Positions 5,413 through 34,817 of a stretch of 34,817 bases of DNA are shown here, piece after piece (the stretch's first letter is position 1; each line of letters starts with the position of its first letter). The notes beneath the pieces were generated by a model. That model saw nothing but the letters and a program-made list of their open reading frames with translations. It made no database searches and was not told the DNA's origin. Origin of the DNA: Candidatus Dojkabacteria bacterium. GTDB taxonomy: Bacteria; Patescibacteriota; Dojkabacteria; B142; JAFGMG01. The DNA lies in assembly GCA_016927655.1 (NCBI GenBank), contig JAFGMG010000001.1, positions 1 to 34,817 on the forward strand, written 5' to 3'. Made by a program: the position numbers and the translations under genes.

Positions 5413-7215
5413 TTACATTTCTAATATTAAATCACGCTTCTCGATTTTATCCTCTAGCTTGTCTACGAATTCATCAAGCTTCATCACCACGTTTTTCTGC
5501 TCGTCCCTATATCGAATTGATACTTTTTCTTCTTGTTCTTCTCTTTTACCGATTATTACCATGTACGGAATCTGCATTTTCTGCGCATCACGGATTTTTG
5601 ACTGCATCATGTCATCGCGTTTGTCATTTAATACCCGAATACCTTCAGCTTTCAATTTTTCCTCAATCTTATCAGCATAGGTATGATTATCTTCACCAAT
5701 AGGGATAATTACAACCTGCTCAGGTGAGAGCCACGCCGGAAATTTACCTGCAGTATGTTCGATCATCACAGAAGTAAATCTTTCAATCGATCCCATAATC
5801 GCTGCATGCAGCATCACAACTCTTTCTTTTTCTGCATTTTCATTAATGCATGTCAGATCAAAGCTCTCGGGCATATTCATATCGAGTTGAATCGTAGCTA
5901 CCTGCCACTGCCTGCCAAGAGAATCCTTCGCCATGAAGTCTATTTTTGGCCCGTACATTGCGGCTTCTCCTTCCACTATTTCAAATTCAACCTTCCTCTC
6001 TTTCGCAAGTTCTTCCAAAATATTTTCAGCCTTTTTCCAAGTTTTGGAGTCTCCAAGATATGCTCCAAAATTTTTAGGATCATGAAAAGATAGCCGGACT
6101 TTTAATTCGAACCCAAATTTAGAATAAAACTCATCAACAATATCCCAGATTGCAAAAAACTCGCTCTTTACTTGATCAAACCGACAAAACACATGAGCAT
6201 CATCCTGGGTTATACATCTAACCCTTGAAAGACCTGACAATTCTCCACTTTGTTCATCGCGGTAGACCATAGTAGTTTCTGCATACCTTTGCGGTAAATC
6301 ACGATAACTTCTTTGAACATGAGCATATATTTGTGTATGATGCGGACAATTCATCGGTTTCATCGCAAATTCATGTCCTTCGCGTGTTTTGATTTTAAAA
6401 AGTTCATTTGCAAATTTCTTCCAATGACCGCTTTTTATATACAAATCCTTTTTTGTGATGTGAGGAATCGCGACTTTCTGATAACCCTTTGCCTTTCTTA
6501 ATTCCCATACAAATTTATCTAATTCTTCTCTGATAATTGTCCCTTTTGGAGTCCATAGCGGCAGACCGCCGCCTACAAGTTCCGAAAAAGTAAATAAATC
6601 AAGTTCTTTCCCAATTTTTTTATGATCCCGTTTCTTGACCTCCTCTAGAAAAATTATATGCTCATCCAATTCTTTCTGAGTCTTAAATGACGTACCGTAT
6701 ATTCGAGTGAGCATTTTATTTTTCTCGTCGCCTCTCCAATAGGCACCAGCAACTGAAAGAAGTTTTATCTTCCCAATCTGCCCGGTACTTCCAATGTGTG
6801 GTCCTTTGCAGAGATCGACAAAAACTTCTTTTCCATCATTATCTATATTTGCATAAATTGTTACCATCTTGTCACCTTTGGCCTCTATCTCATCCAGCCA
6901 TTCCTGCTTGTAAGGATTGTCCTTGAATAATTCTCTTGCTTCGCTGATAGAAATTTCTCTTCGTTCAATTTTTTGATTCTCTTTAATGATTTTTCTCATC
7001 TCCTCCTCAATCTTAGGGAAATCTTCCTCACTCACTGCGAAATTCTCTGGCGAATCGAAATCAAAATAGAACCCTTCTTCGATTGCCGGCCCCATTGCCA
7101 TTATAATTTTGTCTTTACCGTAGATATTCTGCATTGCCTGCATAAGGACATGCTCTGCACTATGCCGCATTTTAAACAATTCCGACTCCTCGTAATTTTT
7201 ATCCATAATTTTCAT
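5413..7215 (-). CDS. thrS: threonyl-tRNA synthetase, without N-terminal TGS domain
   Basis: HSAEH editing motif, CKGPHIGSTG, MKPMNCPHH, YRDEQSGELSGLSRVRCITQDDAHVFC, C-terminal anticodon-binding domain. Confidence 0.97.
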   Translation of the reverse strand: MKIMDKNYEESELFKMRHSAEHVLMQAMQNIYGKDKIIMAMGPAIEEGFYFDFDSPENFAVSEEDFPKIEEEMRKIIKENQKIERREISISEARELFKDNPYKQEWLDEIEAKGDKMVTIYANIDNDGKEVFVDLCKGPHIGSTGQIGKIKLLSVAGAYWRGDEKNKMLTRIYGTSFKTQKELDEHIIFLEEVKKRDHKKIGKELDLFTFSELVGGGLPLWTPKGTIIREELDKFVWELRKAKGYQKVAIPHITKKDLYIKSGHWKKFANELFKIKTREGHEFAMKPMNCPHHTQIYAHVQRSYRDLPQRYAETTMVYRDEQSGELSGLSRVRCITQDDAHVFCRFDQVKSEFFAIWDIVDEFYSKFGFELKVRLSFHDPKNFGAYLGDSKTWKKAENILEELAKERKVEFEIVEGEAAMYGPKIDFMAKDSLGRQWQVATIQLDMNMPESFDLTCINENAEKERVVMLHAAIMGSIERFTSVMIEHTAGKFPAWLSPEQVVIIPIGEDNHTYADKIEEKLKAEGIRVLNDKRDDMMQSKIRDAQKMQIPYMVIIGKREEQEEKVSIRYRDEQKNVVMKLDEFVDKLEDKIEKRDLILEM

Positions 7216-7238
7216 TTAATAACTAAATATAGATTAAC

Positions 7239-7415
7239 AAAAAAAGACCCTTTTGAATAATAATTTTCGTTACTATTCAAAAGGGTCCGGTTAAATTCAG
7301 ACGGTTCCACCTTGTTATTTCACTTTTAGTGAATCTATTCTGTTGTGGTACTCACTTAGATTTGTAGCTCCAAGCTGCTAACTGAAAGGGTCTCACTGTT
7401 CCTTTCTCCCTGATG
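7239..7415 (-). promoter_or_regulatory. T-box riboswitch leader of thrS with intrinsic terminator
   Basis: Minus strand: AAGG-TGGAACC-GTC...GAC-CCTT antiterminator (7313-7281) with the 7-nt T-box bulge; competing terminator GACCCTTTTGAATA/TATTCAAAAGGGTC + T7 (7287-7239); candidate Thr specifier ACC at 7349-7347. Confidence 0.9.
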
Positions 7416-7423
7416 TGTTTATT

Positions 7424-7591
7424 TTACTTTATTTTTTCTTCTTCGAAAAGCTCGTGCTTTCCGGTTTTCTTATCAAATTTCTTCACTCCAACTTTGTCGG
7501 TTGTGTTTACTCTATTCTTCTGTGAAACATAAAACGTTCCGGTATTTTTGTTTCGAAGTTTGATAAGTTGTCTGTTTCCCTTCTTTGCCAT
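7424..7591 (-). CDS. rpmG: 50S ribosomal protein L33 (55 aa)
   Basis: Own translation: MAKKGNRQLIKLRNKNTGTFYVSQKNRVNTTDKVGVKKFDKKTGKHELFEEEKIK; missed by the 60-aa ORF cutoff. Confidence 0.92.
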   Translation of the reverse strand: MAKKGNRQLIKLRNKNTGTFYVSQKNRVNTTDKVGVKKFDKKTGKHELFEEEKIK

Positions 7592-27476: not shown

Positions 27477-27875
27477 GCACCAGTTGGGATGATTACCTCG
27501 TTTAAAGCTCTGCTTATAAATGGGGAGGAAAGTCCGAACATCGCTCATTGATAATATCAATGTAAATAGCACCTTGGATACCTTGGATTGAAGAATCTTA
27601 GGAGATACAAGGCAGGGAGTGATCTCTGGAACGGGCCACAGAAATATACCGCCTCGAGCATAGCCTCAAGGTAAGGGTGAAAAGGTGAGTTTTGTTTCTC
27701 TCTTAAGAAGAAACGAAGCTAACGGGTAAGAGCCCACCGCCATTTGAAGTAATTCAAACGGGCTAGGCAACCTCTGCTAGATGCAACCAAGTAAGTTTTG
27801 GGCAATAGATAAATTATCATCAGCTTGAATTACTTGATAATTCAAGCCAACAGAATTCGGCTTATCAACTGGTGC
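27477..27875 (+). ncRNA. rnpB: RNase P RNA
   Basis: P1 GCACCAGTTG/CAACTGGTGC, GAGGAAAGTCCGAACATCGC, ACAGAAATATACCGCC, GGGTGAAAAGGTGAG, GGTAAGAGCCCACCG, CAGAATTCGGCTTAT. Confidence 0.96.
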
Positions 27876-27878
27876 TTA

Positions 27879-28448
27879 TTAAATATCAATTTCAATAGTT
27901 TCACTGAAGGTTCCTTCATCATCGCTTACAAGAGCGGTGGCTTTGTAGCTGCCATTTGCAAGTGTGATTTCTATTTCACTTGGGTTTAAAGAGGAAACAG
28001 CCTGCTCAACATAATTTCTTGCCGAACCGTCATCTGATTGAATAGTCCATACAACATCAAATGTCTGTCCAGGATCTCCCCATTCCTTCCCTTCAATTAT
28101 TGGTAAAGCCCTTAACCTAAGTTCTGATGAAGTTAAATTCGAAGAAAGAACTTCATATTCAATTTGAATATCGACTTTTCTCTCTGCTTCTGTAATCACG
28201 CCAGTATCCTTTGACACAGAATCGTAATAGATAACACCAATAATTGATGATGCCATTAAAAACACCGCAACAAACTGAAGAAGCGGCTTATTTAAAAATC
28301 CTTGTTTCGAAGCTGAATTCTGATTTAGATTTAAACTCTTCAACACCGTTTTAAATACGAAATAAGTCCCAATAAATAGATATAATGCAACTACAAGAAA
28401 CACCCAAAGCGGAAGGGTTAAACTAAATTGTGATAATAAAGTTTCCAT
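27879..28448 (-). CDS. two-TM membrane protein of secretion operon, unknown function
   Basis: Last gene of PrgI/VirB4 cluster; two N-terminal TM segments plus extracellular beta-type region. Confidence 0.65.
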   Translation of the reverse strand: METLLSQFSLTLPLWVFLVVALYLFIGTYFVFKTVLKSLNLNQNSASKQGFLNKPLLQFVAVFLMASSIIGVIYYDSVSKDTGVITEAERKVDIQIEYEVLSSNLTSSELRLRALPIIEGKEWGDPGQTFDVVWTIQSDDGSARNYVEQAVSSLNPSEIEITLANGSYKATALVSDDEGTFSETIEIDI

Positions 28449-30440
28449 TTATAGGCGCGGTACTTGATTAGATGAAGCAGACTGCTGCAGCTGCTGTGAT
28501 TGCTGTGCTGGCTGAGATGGCTGAGATGGCTGTGGAGATTGTGCTGCTGGCACTTGAGCCTGTTTCTGTGTCTGCTCCGCCTTTGCCAGTTTGGCTGCTT
28601 GGGCCTGCTCTGCTTCTTTAGCCTGCTGCTCCTTTTGCATCATTTCAATCGGGTTTGTAGTAATCAAATTGTGTTCGTTTTCACTAGCAATTACCTGCGT
28701 TGCAACGTGGTTGGATCCAGCAAAAAACAATCCTTCTCCAATACCGGCTGAAAGCAGGTAATTTTTCTCTCCTGAAGTTAGATAAAAGACTTTTTGGATA
28801 CGATCAACAGCCGCCGGGGATTGTTTTAGAAGTACCTGCAAAGCTGAGTTTGTCACAACTGCTTTCCCATAATCATTATCCAAAAAGTCCTCCACGTCCT
28901 GAGTAATAGTGGTAACGCCGAGCGCGTACTTTCTGGCGCGTTTTGATATCGAGTGCAGGAATTTTGCTGCATCTGGGTATCTCATCAACCACCAAGCCTC
29001 ATCAATCACCAGAAGTCTCTTTCTTCTTTCCCTTTTAATTCTCGTCCAAATATAATCAAGCATCATATACATGGCAATAGGCCTTAGATCCTCTGATAAA
29101 TCCCTTATGCTGAAGACCGTAAACGTGTTTTTTATTTCAATATTGCTTGGCTGGTCAAAAATACCTGCTGCACTACCTTTTACATATCTTTCTAATCTGC
29201 CTGCCATCTTATGAGCATCCGGCTCAGCCATTGCCTGTAGGATTTTATACAAATCGGATAAAAGCGGGGCAGGTCTTCTTTGAGTCGCCGGATCCGGAGT
29301 AATCCCTTTTTCTTTATATGTCAGAATTATTGCTCTATCAAGAATTGCGCTTTCTTCAGGAGTAAGGTTGCCTCCAAGCATAATTTTGAATAACCCATTT
29401 AGAGATAGAATTTTGAAACGCAACTCATCTTCATCTTTCTGATAAATTCCCGACAGTTCGAATGGATTGAGTTTTTGAGCGCCATCTTGGGAAAATGAAA
29501 TATAATCTCCTCCAATTGCTGTGCAAAGCTTCTCATACTCACGTTCAGGATCAATGATTATTATTTCAGTCCCAAACATAAGGCTTCTCATTGCTTCCAG
29601 CTTCACAAAATAACTTTTTCCAGCTCCGGAGGTTGCAAAGACGACCATGTTTGCATTGGCAAGTTTAAACCTGTCAAATATTATCAAACTATTATTGTGC
29701 TTATTTAACCCGTACAAAATACCATCCTCCATGGTCAATTCAGAACTCACAAATGGGAATGTAGTCGCAAGCGATGTTGTATCCATATTCCTTGTGACGT
29801 ATATTTCGTCATTCCCGATTGGCATCGATGTTCTAAATCCCTGCTCCTGCTGTAATGTGGCGGTTTTTATCACGACCCCAACCGAAGCAAGTGTCGATTC
29901 AATATTCCGTGAAATTTTTTCAAGCGATTTCAGATCGTCAGCTCTGATAGTAACGTATAGAGCGAAATGGAAATACTTTTCTGTTCCGCTCGCAAGCTGT
30001 TCCTGTAATTCATTTGCATCAGACAAGGCTACCTTTACACTTGGATCGGGGATCTTTCCCTCATCTAGGGCAATATTGATAGTTGCCTCAAATTCCCCGA
30101 TCTTTCTTTTCAGCCGCTCCATCACTTTCCCGGTATCTACTGGATAATAAAAAGTCGAAATATCTACCGGATGATCAAAATTGATCAACGGAGAAAGCCA
30201 ATTTGAGCCTACAAACCTTGGATAACCTGTGACGAAATAAGTCCTAAAATACTTTGAGCCGACAAGCATTTGATTGAAATCTATCTCGATTGCGGAGGGA
30301 GCGATGATGTCCTGGACATCTATCAATCCTGACGAGAATTCCTTGACTGCCTGATCTTCCTGTTGTCTATTTAGACCTTTTGATCCTGTTTGCGAGCCTT
30401 TCTGAGTATTCTTTTTTTTGCTTGAACCAAATATTCCCAT
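28449..30440 (-). CDS. VirB4/TraC-like type IV secretion ATPase with Q/P-rich C-terminal tail
   Basis: Walker A FATSGAGKSYFVK, Walker B RLLVIDEAWWLM, TQDVEDFL. Confidence 0.93.
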   Translation of the reverse strand: MGIFGSSKKKNTQKGSQTGSKGLNRQQEDQAVKEFSSGLIDVQDIIAPSAIEIDFNQMLVGSKYFRTYFVTGYPRFVGSNWLSPLINFDHPVDISTFYYPVDTGKVMERLKRKIGEFEATINIALDEGKIPDPSVKVALSDANELQEQLASGTEKYFHFALYVTIRADDLKSLEKISRNIESTLASVGVVIKTATLQQEQGFRTSMPIGNDEIYVTRNMDTTSLATTFPFVSSELTMEDGILYGLNKHNNSLIIFDRFKLANANMVVFATSGAGKSYFVKLEAMRSLMFGTEIIIIDPEREYEKLCTAIGGDYISFSQDGAQKLNPFELSGIYQKDEDELRFKILSLNGLFKIMLGGNLTPEESAILDRAIILTYKEKGITPDPATQRRPAPLLSDLYKILQAMAEPDAHKMAGRLERYVKGSAAGIFDQPSNIEIKNTFTVFSIRDLSEDLRPIAMYMMLDYIWTRIKRERRKRLLVIDEAWWLMRYPDAAKFLHSISKRARKYALGVTTITQDVEDFLDNDYGKAVVTNSALQVLLKQSPAAVDRIQKVFYLTSGEKNYLLSAGIGEGLFFAGSNHVATQVIASENEHNLITTNPIEMMQKEQQAKEAEQAQAAKLAKAEQTQKQAQVPAAQSPQPSQPSQPAQQSQQLQQSASSNQVPRL

Positions 30441-30443
30441 TTT

Positions 30444-31112
30444 TTATTGAACTGATGGCTGAACTATTCCTGATGTATAATCCCTGATATTCAATCCTAT
30501 TCTTTGATATCCAATTTTATCCGGATCATACACTTCATAGAATAACATAAGAAGCTCATTATTTGTCAGCTGTCTTGCTGTTATTCCCATTTTCTTAAAA
30601 AGTCTGACTATGTTGTCTCTCTTTGGATAAAGCTCCACCTTTGCCCTTTCAACAATTTTATCTACGTTTGTGACCTCTGGTTTCGCACCAAGGAGTTTTT
30701 TTATCAATCCCGGATCAGAAACCAGTAATGATTTATAGGGGATAGTTACAAAAAACCTTTTATCTAAAATTTCATTTTTAGTTGTTAGATTTTTTATAAA
30801 CTGTATATAGATTTCCATTTGTCTTATCAAAGCTTTCGAAACTTGTTTATTCTTATAATCAGTCAGCTTTTTAATATACTCGCTCACATCAGTTCTCACC
30901 GTTCTTATACTTATCTGGAAAGGATAATCAACACCATTGAGCAGATTCGCGAATGCAATAATCCTTGCATCTTGCTCTTCTTCAGAAAGAAGATCAAAAT
31001 TCAGAGCACTGGTTTCTAGAATCAATGCTGCAACCCCATTTTTGAGGATTACAAAATCATCAACGATCTCTTCAATATTTAAATGTTCTTGCGTTGACGG
31101 TGTTTTTGCCAT
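30444..31112 (-). CDS. VirB4 N-terminal-domain-like / TraC-family accessory protein
   Basis: Position between PrgI and VirB4; NIEEIVDDFVILKNGVAALILETSALNFDLLSEEEQDA pattern. Confidence 0.75.
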   Translation of the reverse strand: MAKTPSTQEHLNIEEIVDDFVILKNGVAALILETSALNFDLLSEEEQDARIIAFANLLNGVDYPFQISIRTVRTDVSEYIKKLTDYKNKQVSKALIRQMEIYIQFIKNLTTKNEILDKRFFVTIPYKSLLVSDPGLIKKLLGAKPEVTNVDKIVERAKVELYPKRDNIVRLFKKMGITARQLTNNELLMLFYEVYDPDKIGYQRIGLNIRDYTSGIVQPSVQ

Positions 31113-31133
31113 TTATGTCAAAATTTTTACAAA

Positions 31134-31970
31134 TTATTTATTCTTCTTCATATTTTGAATTTCCTGATACAATTTTTTCATTTCTTCTTTTAGCTGAGTT
31201 TCTCTTGCCTCCACATCACTTGTTTTCATATAAGGATTCAACTCTTGCTGCATTTCAAGAATATCTTTGATTTTTTGTTCGATTCGCTGCTCTTCTGAAC
31301 TGAAACCCAAAGGTCTGGGACGCTGGTTTTGCGTATTTGTATAGACAAAACTTCTATCCTGCCCGGTTTTTACATTTCTCTGGCCTCTTCCAATTGGATT
31401 TACTTCACCTGCTATTGATTGCTGTTCCTCTTCAACACGCCTAGGCCCCTCTTTTACCTCCGGGATAGTGTAATTTTGAGCAAATGTCTTACCAAATTCA
31501 GCATTAAAATATTGATCCAGTCTTTGCAGTTCTTTCGTCTCGTCTGCATCGATTTGCGTACTCTGCTGGTTAACCGCTTCAATTATTGGCAAAGCTCCAA
31601 ATTCTTTTTGTGTTTTTTTTGATCTACCTTCATTTTGCTTTGTTTTCTTAACCTGAGTAGATCTGAGAACCTTTGGTGTTTTCGGGCTCTTTTTCCAGAC
31701 ATATCTTTGAGATGAAAACATCGCACTAATATAGTTCGAAAACCACCTCGAGAATGGCTGGCCATTGATGGTAATAAACGTCAAAGAGAATCCGATGATC
31801 AAGGCAACCGCCATCAATGGCCAGCCGACTATCCAGGGTAATCCAATAAAATATATCACCACTGCAATTAAAATTCCCCCAGCAAGGCTGAAAAACTGCC
31901 TGATAGTCAAACTCCCAAAAAGTTTGAATTCAACGTCCATTATATTTTGCGGGATGGCGTGTTTATCCAT
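31134..31970 (-). CDS. PrgI family membrane protein
   Basis: IPQNIMDVEFKLFGSLTIRQFFSLAGG with two TM helices. Confidence 0.88.
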   Translation of the reverse strand: MDKHAIPQNIMDVEFKLFGSLTIRQFFSLAGGILIAVVIYFIGLPWIVGWPLMAVALIIGFSLTFITINGQPFSRWFSNYISAMFSSQRYVWKKSPKTPKVLRSTQVKKTKQNEGRSKKTQKEFGALPIIEAVNQQSTQIDADETKELQRLDQYFNAEFGKTFAQNYTIPEVKEGPRRVEEEQQSIAGEVNPIGRGQRNVKTGQDRSFVYTNTQNQRPRPLGFSSEEQRIEQKIKDILEMQQELNPYMKTSDVEARETQLKEEMKKLYQEIQNMKKNK

Positions 31971-32040
31971 GTCAATTTTCTACTTATCAATATATCAGTT
32001 CGCCTGCAAAGCGTCCAGATATAAAAATACCCGGGAACAT

Positions 32041-32070
32041 AAAAAAAGCGCCTCCCGGCGCTCTTTTTAT
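32041..32070 (-). terminator. intrinsic terminator (potentially bidirectional)
   Basis: agcgcc-tccc-ggcgct flanked by A7 and T5. Confidence 0.85.
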
Positions 32071-32088
32071 TAATATTTATGATATTCC

Positions 32089-32556
32089 CTACTCAATCGC
32101 AACAACTTCAAATTCTTCAGTCCCGTTTGGCATATCGACGCTAACCGAATCACCAATATCTTTGCCAAGCAATGCCTGACCGATTGGAGAACCGACAGAG
32201 ATTTTGAATTCAGATGGGTCAGCTTCACTTTCGCCAACAAGGATGTATTCTCTTTTTGCTCCATCAGATTTTCTCTTAACTACCACTTTCTCGCCAAGAC
32301 CCGCCGTAGAATCTTTCGAATCCCCTTTCATCACAACCGCATCTGCTATCATTCCTTCGAGTTCCTCTATTCTATTTTCATTAAACTCCTTATCTTCCAT
32401 TGCCGCCTTGTATGCAGCATTTTCGGATAGATCACCCTGCTCACTTGCAGCATTTAATTTTTCGGCAATTTCCTCCCTTGTTACCGTTTTTCTTTTTTCC
32501 AGCTCAGCTTTCAATTCCTGCAAGCCTTGCTGAGTCATTACTTTGTCGTCTTTCAT
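32089..32556 (-). CDS. greA: transcription elongation factor GreA
   Basis: AASEQGDLSENAAYKAAMEDKEFNENRIEELEGMI; SPIGQALLGKDIGDSV. Confidence 0.96.
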   Translation of the reverse strand: MKDDKVMTQQGLQELKAELEKRKTVTREEIAEKLNAASEQGDLSENAAYKAAMEDKEFNENRIEELEGMIADAVVMKGDSKDSTAGLGEKVVVKRKSDGAKREYILVGESEADPSEFKISVGSPIGQALLGKDIGDSVSVDMPNGTEEFEVVAIE

Positions 32557-34817
32557 TTTCTAATACTAAAATCTATAATTTTGTTCTCAATTAATTCTCC
32601 TGAGATAATTAATTTACCCCCGGAATTTATCATGTCATCTGATTGGCTAAATTCATAGCCAGCCGAACCTACTTCGATATCATAATTGACAACTAATCCA
32701 GGTGTATTTATAAGAGCAGACCTCACATTATACTCATTATCTCCAAGTGTTTCAACTGATGGCTCAAAAGTGAAGCTCAGAGTAAGTTCCTGCAAATCGG
32801 ATGTATCAAGCGAGAGGCACAATCTACCCTCTATAAAAGTTTTTGCAAGTTCCTGACTAGCTTGGATATTACTAATTCCAGATGGAGTGCATAAAACCAA
32901 CCGCTCCATGTCCTGACTGTTTGAGAAATCAAACGTCATTTCCCTTTCAATTTCTGACGGGAGGACAAGATCATCTTTAATTACAAGATTTACTGCTGGA
33001 TAGCTGCTCGAACTGATAACATTTGGATCAACGACTGGGAATATCTCAAATCGTGGTATATCTTCGGTGTCTAATTCCAGATCTCCGACATCGTATGCGA
33101 TTTGAGTGCTGCTGCTTTCAATTTGCAGCTCTTTATTTGCTAAAATATCGTCGCCGGAAATAATCAATTTATACAGAAGGGCTGGATTACCAGTCATATC
33201 AATTATCTGCAATGCGAAAATATTAGCAAGCACCTCGTTTTTCCTAGTAATCGTATTATTTTCTCCTATCAGCAACTCGACAGAGCTTGAAAAGGTGTCT
33301 TCTCTAATTAATACCTGATTAATTTCAACTTCTCCGTTTTGGGCTAATATATCTTTCAAGAAACCAGTATTCGCAAAAAAGATTGCCTGCGATTCCACTG
33401 AGAACTTTTTATCTACATATTCGTTTAGATCATCTTCAATAATTGATTTATCTGGTATAAGGAATAGATCAGCAAAAGTCACATTGTCACTGGATTTGAA
33501 ATCAGTAGAAGCCACCTGTATCATTTCTAATTCATCTTCCTCTACATTTATCTTTTCTGCTAAATCTTCTTCACTTAAAGGACTAAGTTCAATATCGCTC
33601 AACTCGCCCCCTCTGATTTGTATTATCCCAATTGCCGCTGGATAACCTCCTGATGGTGTATATCTACTGTCATCTTGTAAGACCATTGTATAAGTCTTCG
33701 TACTGTTCGATAGAAAATACTCTGAAAAATTCTGTGTAAATTTTGAAAATTTAATCGCCGTTCCTTCAAGAGAGTATACTTTCTCATACATTTTACTAAG
33801 GTCGTAACCCAGAATTTTTCCGACAGGTTTATTTCTTACTGCTTGAGAGGTAATTTCAATTTTTGTATCCAGCTGATTTGCCCTTGCAGAATCCGCAAGT
33901 ACTTTTGCAAGCATCTCTTCATCAATACTTCCAGGTCCCAGATCAAGCAAAGACTCTCCCGTTGGTCTATAAACAAGCGAATAATCAGCACCCTCAACAA
34001 GTTCGTAGAAATCACTATTTAAACTGAATGCATCGCTAATTGCCTGAATATGCAGCGATAACGCACTTAAAGAATCCTGTGTCGTTTGATAATTTTCCCT
34101 TGCCCCTAATACTACATATACCTGTTCAAACCTTGCGTGATTTTCACTAAATTCAGTGACATTCTCGGAGATATGACCTACGTCTCCTGTAATCATTTGA
34201 TAATCCTGTGTATCAATATGACGCTCAAGAGCTACATTATAGTATTCAATTAAAACAAGATTTTTAAACATCACAAAAACTGGTGCTAAAAATCCAATAT
34301 ATATCACGGAGAATACTGCCAGAACTAGAGCGTACATAACTAATTCGGACAGTGTGATTTTCTTTAAAAACCGCAATTTATGCGTAAGAGAGTCATAGCG
34401 GCTTTGAAAAGCCCTGGATACTTTTTCTCCTGCTGTGAGTTTTCTTTTTGCTTTTGATTGATCTTTAAGTTTTTCATTTGCAATTAAAATACTGCCTCTT
34501 CTTGAAAGTTCCTGTGCCTTTCTTTCTGCGATAAGTCTTGCAAGCGCGCCCTTTGGTTCATTATCATCTTCGCTTGATACATTTACATCGTCAGTGATCT
34601 CATCTTCTCTCATCATGACCCTATTTGCTTCTTGCACCAGGACCTGTTTGGCATAATCGAAAGATTGAACAAGAGCTCTGTGAAAAGAAACTCTTGGCAG
34701 CCAGCCGATAGTGGTCAAACTTTTCGCCGGCTTGTGATATCTGATCGCTGGATATTCACCAGTTGAGTTGTCGAATTTAATTTCCTGATCAAGTCCTACA
34801 AGCTCTTGAAGTTTGTA
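32553..34817 (-). CDS. DUF4012-like membrane protein, open to window edge; N-terminal segment resembles NAD-dependent epimerase C-terminus (partial)
   Basis: DDSRYTPSGGYPAAIGIIQI DUF4012-like motif, single TM; frame stays open 33 codons past the track start (TTG) to the edge. Confidence 0.75.
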   Translation of the reverse strand, partial: YKLQELVGLDQEIKFDNSTGEYPAIRYHKPAKSLTTIGWLPRVSFHRALVQSFDYAKQVLVQEANRVMMREDEITDDVNVSSEDDNEPKGALARLIAERKAQELSRRGSILIANEKLKDQSKAKRKLTAGEKVSRAFQSRYDSLTHKLRFLKKITLSELVMYALVLAVFSVIYIGFLAPVFVMFKNLVLIEYYNVALERHIDTQDYQMITGDVGHISENVTEFSENHARFEQVYVVLGARENYQTTQDSLSALSLHIQAISDAFSLNSDFYELVEGADYSLVYRPTGESLLDLGPGSIDEEMLAKVLADSARANQLDTKIEITSQAVRNKPVGKILGYDLSKMYEKVYSLEGTAIKFSKFTQNFSEYFLSNSTKTYTMVLQDDSRYTPSGGYPAAIGIIQIRGGELSDIELSPLSEEDLAEKINVEEDELEMIQVASTDFKSSDNVTFADLFLIPDKSIIEDDLNEYVDKKFSVESQAIFFANTGFLKDILAQNGEVEINQVLIREDTFSSSVELLIGENNTITRKNEVLANIFALQIIDMTGNPALLYKLIISGDDILANKELQIESSSTQIAYDVGDLELDTEDIPRFEIFPVVDPNVISSSSYPAVNLVIKDDLVLPSEIEREMTFDFSNSQDMERLVLCTPSGISNIQASQELAKTFIEGRLCLSLDTSDLQELTLSFTFEPSVETLGDNEYNVRSALINTPGLVVNYDIEVGSAGYEFSQSDDMINSGGKLIISGELIENKIIDFSIRK

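Follow-up and report, generated by a model that had tools for sequence, protein, structure and literature searches.

T-box riboswitches are described mainly as a Gram-positive trait. A survey from 2008 placed over 95% of them in Firmicutes (PMC2494555). In canonical members Stem I serves as a ruler for the distance of about 60 Å between the anticodon and the elbow of the tRNA (PMC4919913). Two T-loops with the consensus sequences AGAGA and UGxRA interlock at the tip of this stem and dock on the tRNA elbow (PMC7583486), and in the literature Stem I as a whole counts as the obligate domain for tRNA reading (PMC7583486, PMC4919913). Actinobacteria have T-boxes with a shortened Stem I, which retain the specifier hairpin and K-turn but not the double T-loop and for the most part control translation (PMC7583486). 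RNase P carries an interdigitated double T-loop as well, an elbow-docking module of the same kind that is not part of a riboswitch (PMC4919913).

The leader described here lies between rpmG and thrS in a 34,817-nucleotide stretch of DNA (the window) from a Candidatus Dojkabacteria genome of 0.91 Mb and 97% completeness. That it is a T-box riboswitch, in the broad sense of the family, is near certain, and we think it very probable that it is a 5′-truncated transcription-attenuation T-box by which thrS answers uncharged tRNA-Thr(GGU). Along the minus strand the order is rpmG, TAAAAT box, AGGGA hairpin, 34-nt linker, U-ACC-A, short hairpin, antiterminator, terminator and thrS:

7424-7591, minus strand: rpmG (ribosomal protein L33; TIGR01023, PF00471), the upstream gene adjoining the switch
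7421-7426, minus strand: predicted promoter -10 box TAAAAT (5/6 to TATAAT), 9 nt before AGGGA and overlapping the rpmG stop codon; -35 weak; similarly placed in most of 37 related leaders
7407-7411, minus strand: AGGGA, first T-loop (consensus AGAGA) of the putative double T-loop motif; its A, G and final A do not vary in 20/20 aligned relatives
7401-7406, minus strand: GAAAGG, 5′ strand of the double T-loop helix, pairing with 7389-7384; two-sided changes at all 6 pairs in relatives
7391-7395, minus strand: UGAGA, second T-loop (consensus UGxRA), within an 11-nt loop (7400-7390); U, G and last A invariant in 20/20 aligned relatives
7384-7389, minus strand: CCUUUC, 3′ strand of the double T-loop helix (sequence, covariation)
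7350-7383, minus strand: 34-nt linker joining the double T-loop and the specifier; carries a small inserted hairpin (leader comparison)
7347-7349, minus strand: specifier ACC (Thr), U before and A after; ACC in 10/10 thrS leaders
7319-7333, minus strand: Stem III-like hairpin UUCACU-AAA-AGUGAA (UUCACUaaaAGUGAA), from fold and inspection; RRRxG flank absent
7310-7313, minus strand: AAGG, 5′ strand of antiterminator helix A1; 96% of cells paired in 25 relatives
7303-7309, minus strand: 7-nt T-box bulge UGGAACC, its UGGA complementary to UCCA of tRNA-Thr (sequence, tRNA end, covariance model)
7300-7302, minus strand: GUC, 5′ strand of antiterminator helix A2, partner GAC at 7287-7285 (covariance model, covariation)
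7281-7284, minus strand: CCUU, 3′ strand of helix A1, common to the terminator (covariance model, terminator overlap)
7246-7287, minus strand: intrinsic terminator hairpin GACCCUUUUGAAUA / UAUUCAAAAGGGUC, arms 7287-7274 and 7259-7246, -23.9 kcal/mol
7239-7245, minus strand: terminator U tract, U7 (sequence)
5413-7215, minus strand: thrS, threonyl-tRNA synthetase of 600 aa, the controlled gene (TIGR00418, 664 bits, cut-off 384; open reading frame list)

A preliminary description of this DNA, made from the letters alone, had proposed a T-box before thrS. Its UGGAACC antiterminator, a covariance-model match and a leader fold far below that of shuffled sequences (z -4.1, 0/200) all uphold the proposal, and AAGG-UGGAACC-GUC...GAC-CCUU and the 14-bp, U7-tailed terminator said to share its 5′ strand are present as described. 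The terminator 5′ arm is the antiterminator 3′ strand, with all 7 nt reused, and by this overlap the leader is a predicted transcription-terminating T-box with a mutually exclusive terminator. The 7-nt UGGNACC bulge and the overlapping terminator are those of the canonical transcriptional T-box (RF00230, B. subtilis glyQS type), although helix A2 of the window lacks the starting G-U pair. The same genome encodes a tRNA-Thr(GGU) with U73 and an encoded CCA (RF00005, ARAGORN), and UGGA of the bulge can therefore pair with its UCCA end; all three Thr tRNAs of the genome have U73, and the T arm of the tRNA-Thr reads ATTC, not GTTC.

Scores against known models were low. Using cmscan at gathering scores, RF00230 gave no match over the leader; the Infernal comparison that the preliminary description had suggested did return an end-to-end alignment at relaxed thresholds (21.2 bits, E 0.007 for a 301-base stretch) but fell short of the gathering score of 93. 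A covariance model built from 20 reduced leaders, with the window left out, found the leader at 34.7 bits (E 2.2e-5 in the window) and left the rest of the window at noise. Comparison with leaders from relatives, which the preliminary description had suggested for thrS, gave an antiterminator that is 96% paired in 25 relatives and double T-loop helix pairs that vary two-sidedly, and the covariation score of the whole structure was 0.55 versus 0.23 for shuffles (0/500).

The lineage proposed at the outset, Patescibacteria, held: named thrS relatives are almost all from this phylum. One of them, an Uhrbacteria record (L091), matched genome G273, which is assigned to the same phylum as the window, without a difference over the stretch compared. 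Nine other genomes of the order have 3-7 T-box matches each, none above the Rfam cut-off, and a T-box is present in all eight order members with a readable thrS leader. Leaders in the order fall into two kinds, those with a long Stem I (proS, one alaS and others) and those with the anatomy of the window (thrS, glyS, aspS, argG and one acetyltransferase gene; gene identities checked by NCBIfam for examples). The covariance model matched 26/86 genomes of the class and 16/381 of the phylum, other T-box forms included. Reading the matches individually left 37 leaders of a reduced kind, spread over 20 Patescibacteria genomes. The order accounts for 25 of them and nine further genomes of the class for 11; the last one, before glyS of G102 (L230), comes from another class. 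Most matches beyond the class proved to be T-boxes of other forms, L230 alone having the reduced anatomy, and a tyrS leader (L217) with a similar hairpin and no adjacent promoter was left out of the 37. The genes behind them are aspS (14), thrS (10), glyS (10), argG (1), alaS (1) and a RimL-like acetyltransferase (1). A search of the 37 leaders returned a U tract in 33 and the terminator/antiterminator overlap in 29, some of the misses being script errors on the antiterminator strand. The acetyltransferase leader (L193 296-434, in G009) is a reduced T-box that may be Gly-specific, and a RimL-like ribosomal-protein acetyltransferase is an unusual gene to find behind a T-box.

The first structure of the leader is AGGGA-GAAAGG-AACAGUGAGAC-CCUUUC. 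The GAAAGG/CCUUUC hairpin had been noted from the start and is real, covarying in relatives, and across the reduced class the motif is AGNRA, a covarying helix and a loop ending in UGNRA. In sequence this matches the interdigitated double T-loop at the tip of canonical Stem I, the match in the window being one of sequence consensus and helix covariation alone. Canonical T-boxes of the same order share this tip, as a comparison of L117 (AGCAAGUCAAAGUAGCUGAAAGUUUGA) with the reduced leader L195 (AGCAAUUGGGAGUAGCUGAAAGUCCCAA) illustrates. By analogy with canonical T-boxes, the hairpin would dock on the tRNA elbow. Another conserved element, GUACGCGAACCA, occurs in T-box leaders L126, L130, L137 and L191 of several order-mates, of which at least L130 and L137 are serS-like.

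Downstream of this hairpin, the reduced leaders carry a codon that matches the gene: ACC in 10/10 thrS, GGC in 10/10 glyS and GAC in 14/14 aspS leaders, with 2 cross-hits in the 40-nt span searched. The specifier lies on an A-rich strand 3′ of the double T-loop hairpin and starts 34-46 nt after AGNRA in 32/36 leaders; the distance rises to 61-64 in four thrS leaders, including that of the window, which contain an inserted hairpin. The linker of the window is longer than usual, and a small hairpin is likewise inserted in the linkers of three other thrS leaders and one alaS leader. A U precedes the specifier in 34/36 and an A follows it in 30/36. The proposal that ACC is a Thr specifier read by tRNA-Thr(GGU) thus agrees both with the 10 reduced thrS leaders and with the tRNA encoded in the same genome. 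The base of the bulge that would face the tRNA discriminator also follows the gene: A in 10/10 glyS, C in 12/14 aspS (U in 2), U in alaS and argG, and A in 7/10 thrS (G in 3). These bases fit U73 of the Gly and Thr tRNAs and G73 of the Asp tRNAs in the window's genome; should the tRNA-Thr of three order-mates (L006, L010, L011) end in U73 as well, their UGGG could pair with it only through a G-U wobble.

Where the specifier sits bears on a reading that we consider improbable, namely that the leader is of the actinobacterial type with an ultrashort Stem I, the apical loop of an AAUCUA/UAGAUU hairpin holding ACC and the first hairpin being an unrelated addition. Such an arrangement has parallels in Saccharibacteria, Uhrbacteria and Doudnabacteria, where thrS leaders (L029, L036, L062, L066, L067, L091) have a short hairpin with ACC in an apical loop, UCACCAA or UAACCAU, another form of Stem I. 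However, the AAUCUA/UAGAUU hairpin that the preliminary description placed around ACC is not conserved and is absent from the predicted fold, and specifier flanks pair no better than mismatched flanks across 36 leaders (p 0.26), on which ground a conserved hairpin around the specifier was rejected. The first hairpin, moreover, has the T-loop consensus and resembles the canonical apex of the same order. Of the other upstream hairpins listed in that description, GAAAGG/CCUUUC stands, AGCUuggAGCU is a local insertion and UUCACUaaaAGUGAA is plausible as Stem III. The canonical purine string RRRxG-Stem III-AA is absent from the window, which has AAUAG in place of RRRxG, and RRRxG was found by script in only some glyS and aspS relatives. 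The model aligned Stem III poorly, with 58% of its cells paired, and no claim therefore rests on it. Between specifier and Stem III the reduced set has ~15-40 nt, mostly A-rich, and by inspection no visible Stem IIA/B.

In the reduced class a -10 box sits about 7-13 nt before AGNRA. Hexamers with at least 5/6 matches occur 4-15 nt before AGNRA in 29/37 leaders (9.2 in shuffles; 13, 2 and 4 in spans farther away) and a perfect TATAAT in 16/37 (0.95 in shuffles; 2, 0 and 2 farther away). Since the pattern had been spotted before it was counted, the counts serve to check it and do not amount to a blind prediction; the covariance model that picked the leaders took in no promoter sequence. With the -10 box so close, transcripts are expected to start at AGNRA or a few nucleotides ahead of it, which in the window would put the start at or near AGGGA. 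The 60 nt upstream of the hairpin and the 50 nt after it gave no pairing signal in the 37 leaders (-11.04 for a leader's own strands, -11.01 for mismatched ones, p 0.72). Applied as a positive control to eight canonical T-boxes of the order, however, the test recovered Stem I (-16.1 vs -10.9, p 0.004). The best -10-like hexamers of these eight lie mostly 33-51 nt upstream. An upstream strand pairing as the 5′ side of Stem I was rejected for want of any pairing excess.

These results weigh on the quite improbable alternative of an ordinary T-box whose Stem I has diverged too far for Rfam, transcribed from a start farther upstream (within or ahead of rpmG, for instance) and forming its lower Stem I with upstream sequence. 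Canonical long-Stem-I T-boxes do exist in the same order, and the -35 of the window is weak; with no good -35 and a promoter placed at the end of rpmG, the leader of the window may also give some longer transcripts. Against it stand the lack of upstream/downstream pairing in a test that detects Stem I where it exists, the -10 boxes a few nucleotides before AGNRA, and the fact that the sequence upstream in the window is rpmG coding sequence. A degenerate remnant that has lost tRNA sensing and acts only as a constitutive attenuator is highly improbable, for in spite of low covariance scores and a short Stem III without RRRxG the leaders keep specifier, bulge base, T-loops, antiterminator and terminator overlap, and five genes have a readable, gene-matching specifier.

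We therefore favor a 5′-truncated T-box. The preliminary description had spoken of a reduced specifier region, and the absence of upstream pairing bears this out; the reduction is more specific, the 5′ half of Stem I being absent, and is common to the 37 leaders. That the Stem I 5′ strand, K-turn and specifier loop are absent from the reduced class is well supported by these comparisons, and the loss of the 5′ half would follow from a transcription start that appears to lie at the double T-loop. Sequence, conservation or covariation shows the bulge and antiterminator, the overlap with the terminator, the identity of the specifier, the fit to the tRNA discriminator, the consensus and helix of the double T-loop, and the absence of lower Stem I pairing.

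The reduced form thus shares with canonical T-boxes a codon-like specifier matched to the tRNA of the gene, the AGAGA/UGxRA double T-loop and aminoacyl-tRNA synthetase targets. Unlike them, it has no Stem I 5′ half and thus no lower helix, K-turn or internal specifier loop, and no visible Stem IIA/B domain, which is optional even in canonical ones; the double T-loop is at the extreme 5′ end, and the antiterminator ends after about 130 nt. In the window the complete canonical Stem I, with side-bulge specifier, K-turn and S-turn, is replaced by a leader with no upstream pairing and a promoter beside AGNRA. Like the ultrashort and intermediate Stem I T-boxes of Actinobacteria (ileS), the form combines a reduced tRNA-reading domain with a normal discriminator domain. 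However, the opposite half has been lost: the reduced leaders keep the double T-loop, have no conserved specifier hairpin and end in a terminator. A 5′-truncated subclass is well supported by the sequences, and we consider it probable that these leaders form a distinct Patescibacteria T-box subclass that starts at the double T-loop, carries its specifier on a free strand without a Stem I body and serves at least six genes with differing specifiers.

How such a leader would read its tRNA can be envisioned as follows. RNA polymerase would start at or a few nucleotides before AGGGA, and the double T-loop hairpin, the first structure made, would capture the tRNA elbow. The strand after it could then thread along the anticodon arm and present ACC to the GGU anticodon. 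The usual linker of ~6-16 nt together with the helix could, by our estimate, span about 60 Å, the shortest being near the limit. With uncharged tRNA, the UCCA end would pair with UGGA, the antiterminator would be held and thrS transcribed. With charged tRNA the 3′ end could not seat, CCUU would be drawn into the terminator and transcription would stop. The leader would in this way respond to tRNA charging by tRNA-dependent readthrough.

The genome and its relatives offer further observations. The leuS gene of the same genome is preceded by a second T-box match (33.3 bits), and its product (G000, L001 3-1439) is a LeuRS with a NUDIX domain (PF00293, residues 383-453) beside the editing domain. 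A second thrS (G000:C4:65977-67716, L013), 37% identical to that of the window, is without a T-box core, and in G008 and G009 two thrS copies are adjacent. Elsewhere in the window lie a class A RNase P RNA (27477-27879, plus strand; 129.5 bits, cmscan) and a minus-strand cluster (28449-34718) with PrgI-like and TraG P-loop proteins that resembles a type IV secretion or conjugation apparatus.

The reduced T-box version is apparently undescribed so far. We found no paper on T-boxes in Patescibacteria, CPR, Parcubacteria or Saccharibacteria in a search that covered the subscription literature incompletely, and the novelty of the lineage finding is for this reason less certain than the anatomy. 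Among 381 sampled genomes of the phylum, 126 have RF00230 matches at E <= 1e-4, 13 reaching the Rfam cut-off and 113 remaining below it; with nearly all matches below, annotation that relies on the threshold would miss Patescibacteria T-boxes. If our reading is true, a tRNA is recognized here by its codon, elbow and 3′ end without a Stem I body. A natural switch in which a free strand replaces the ruler would show which contacts are truly needed, and would provide a very small tRNA sensor to study and engineer.
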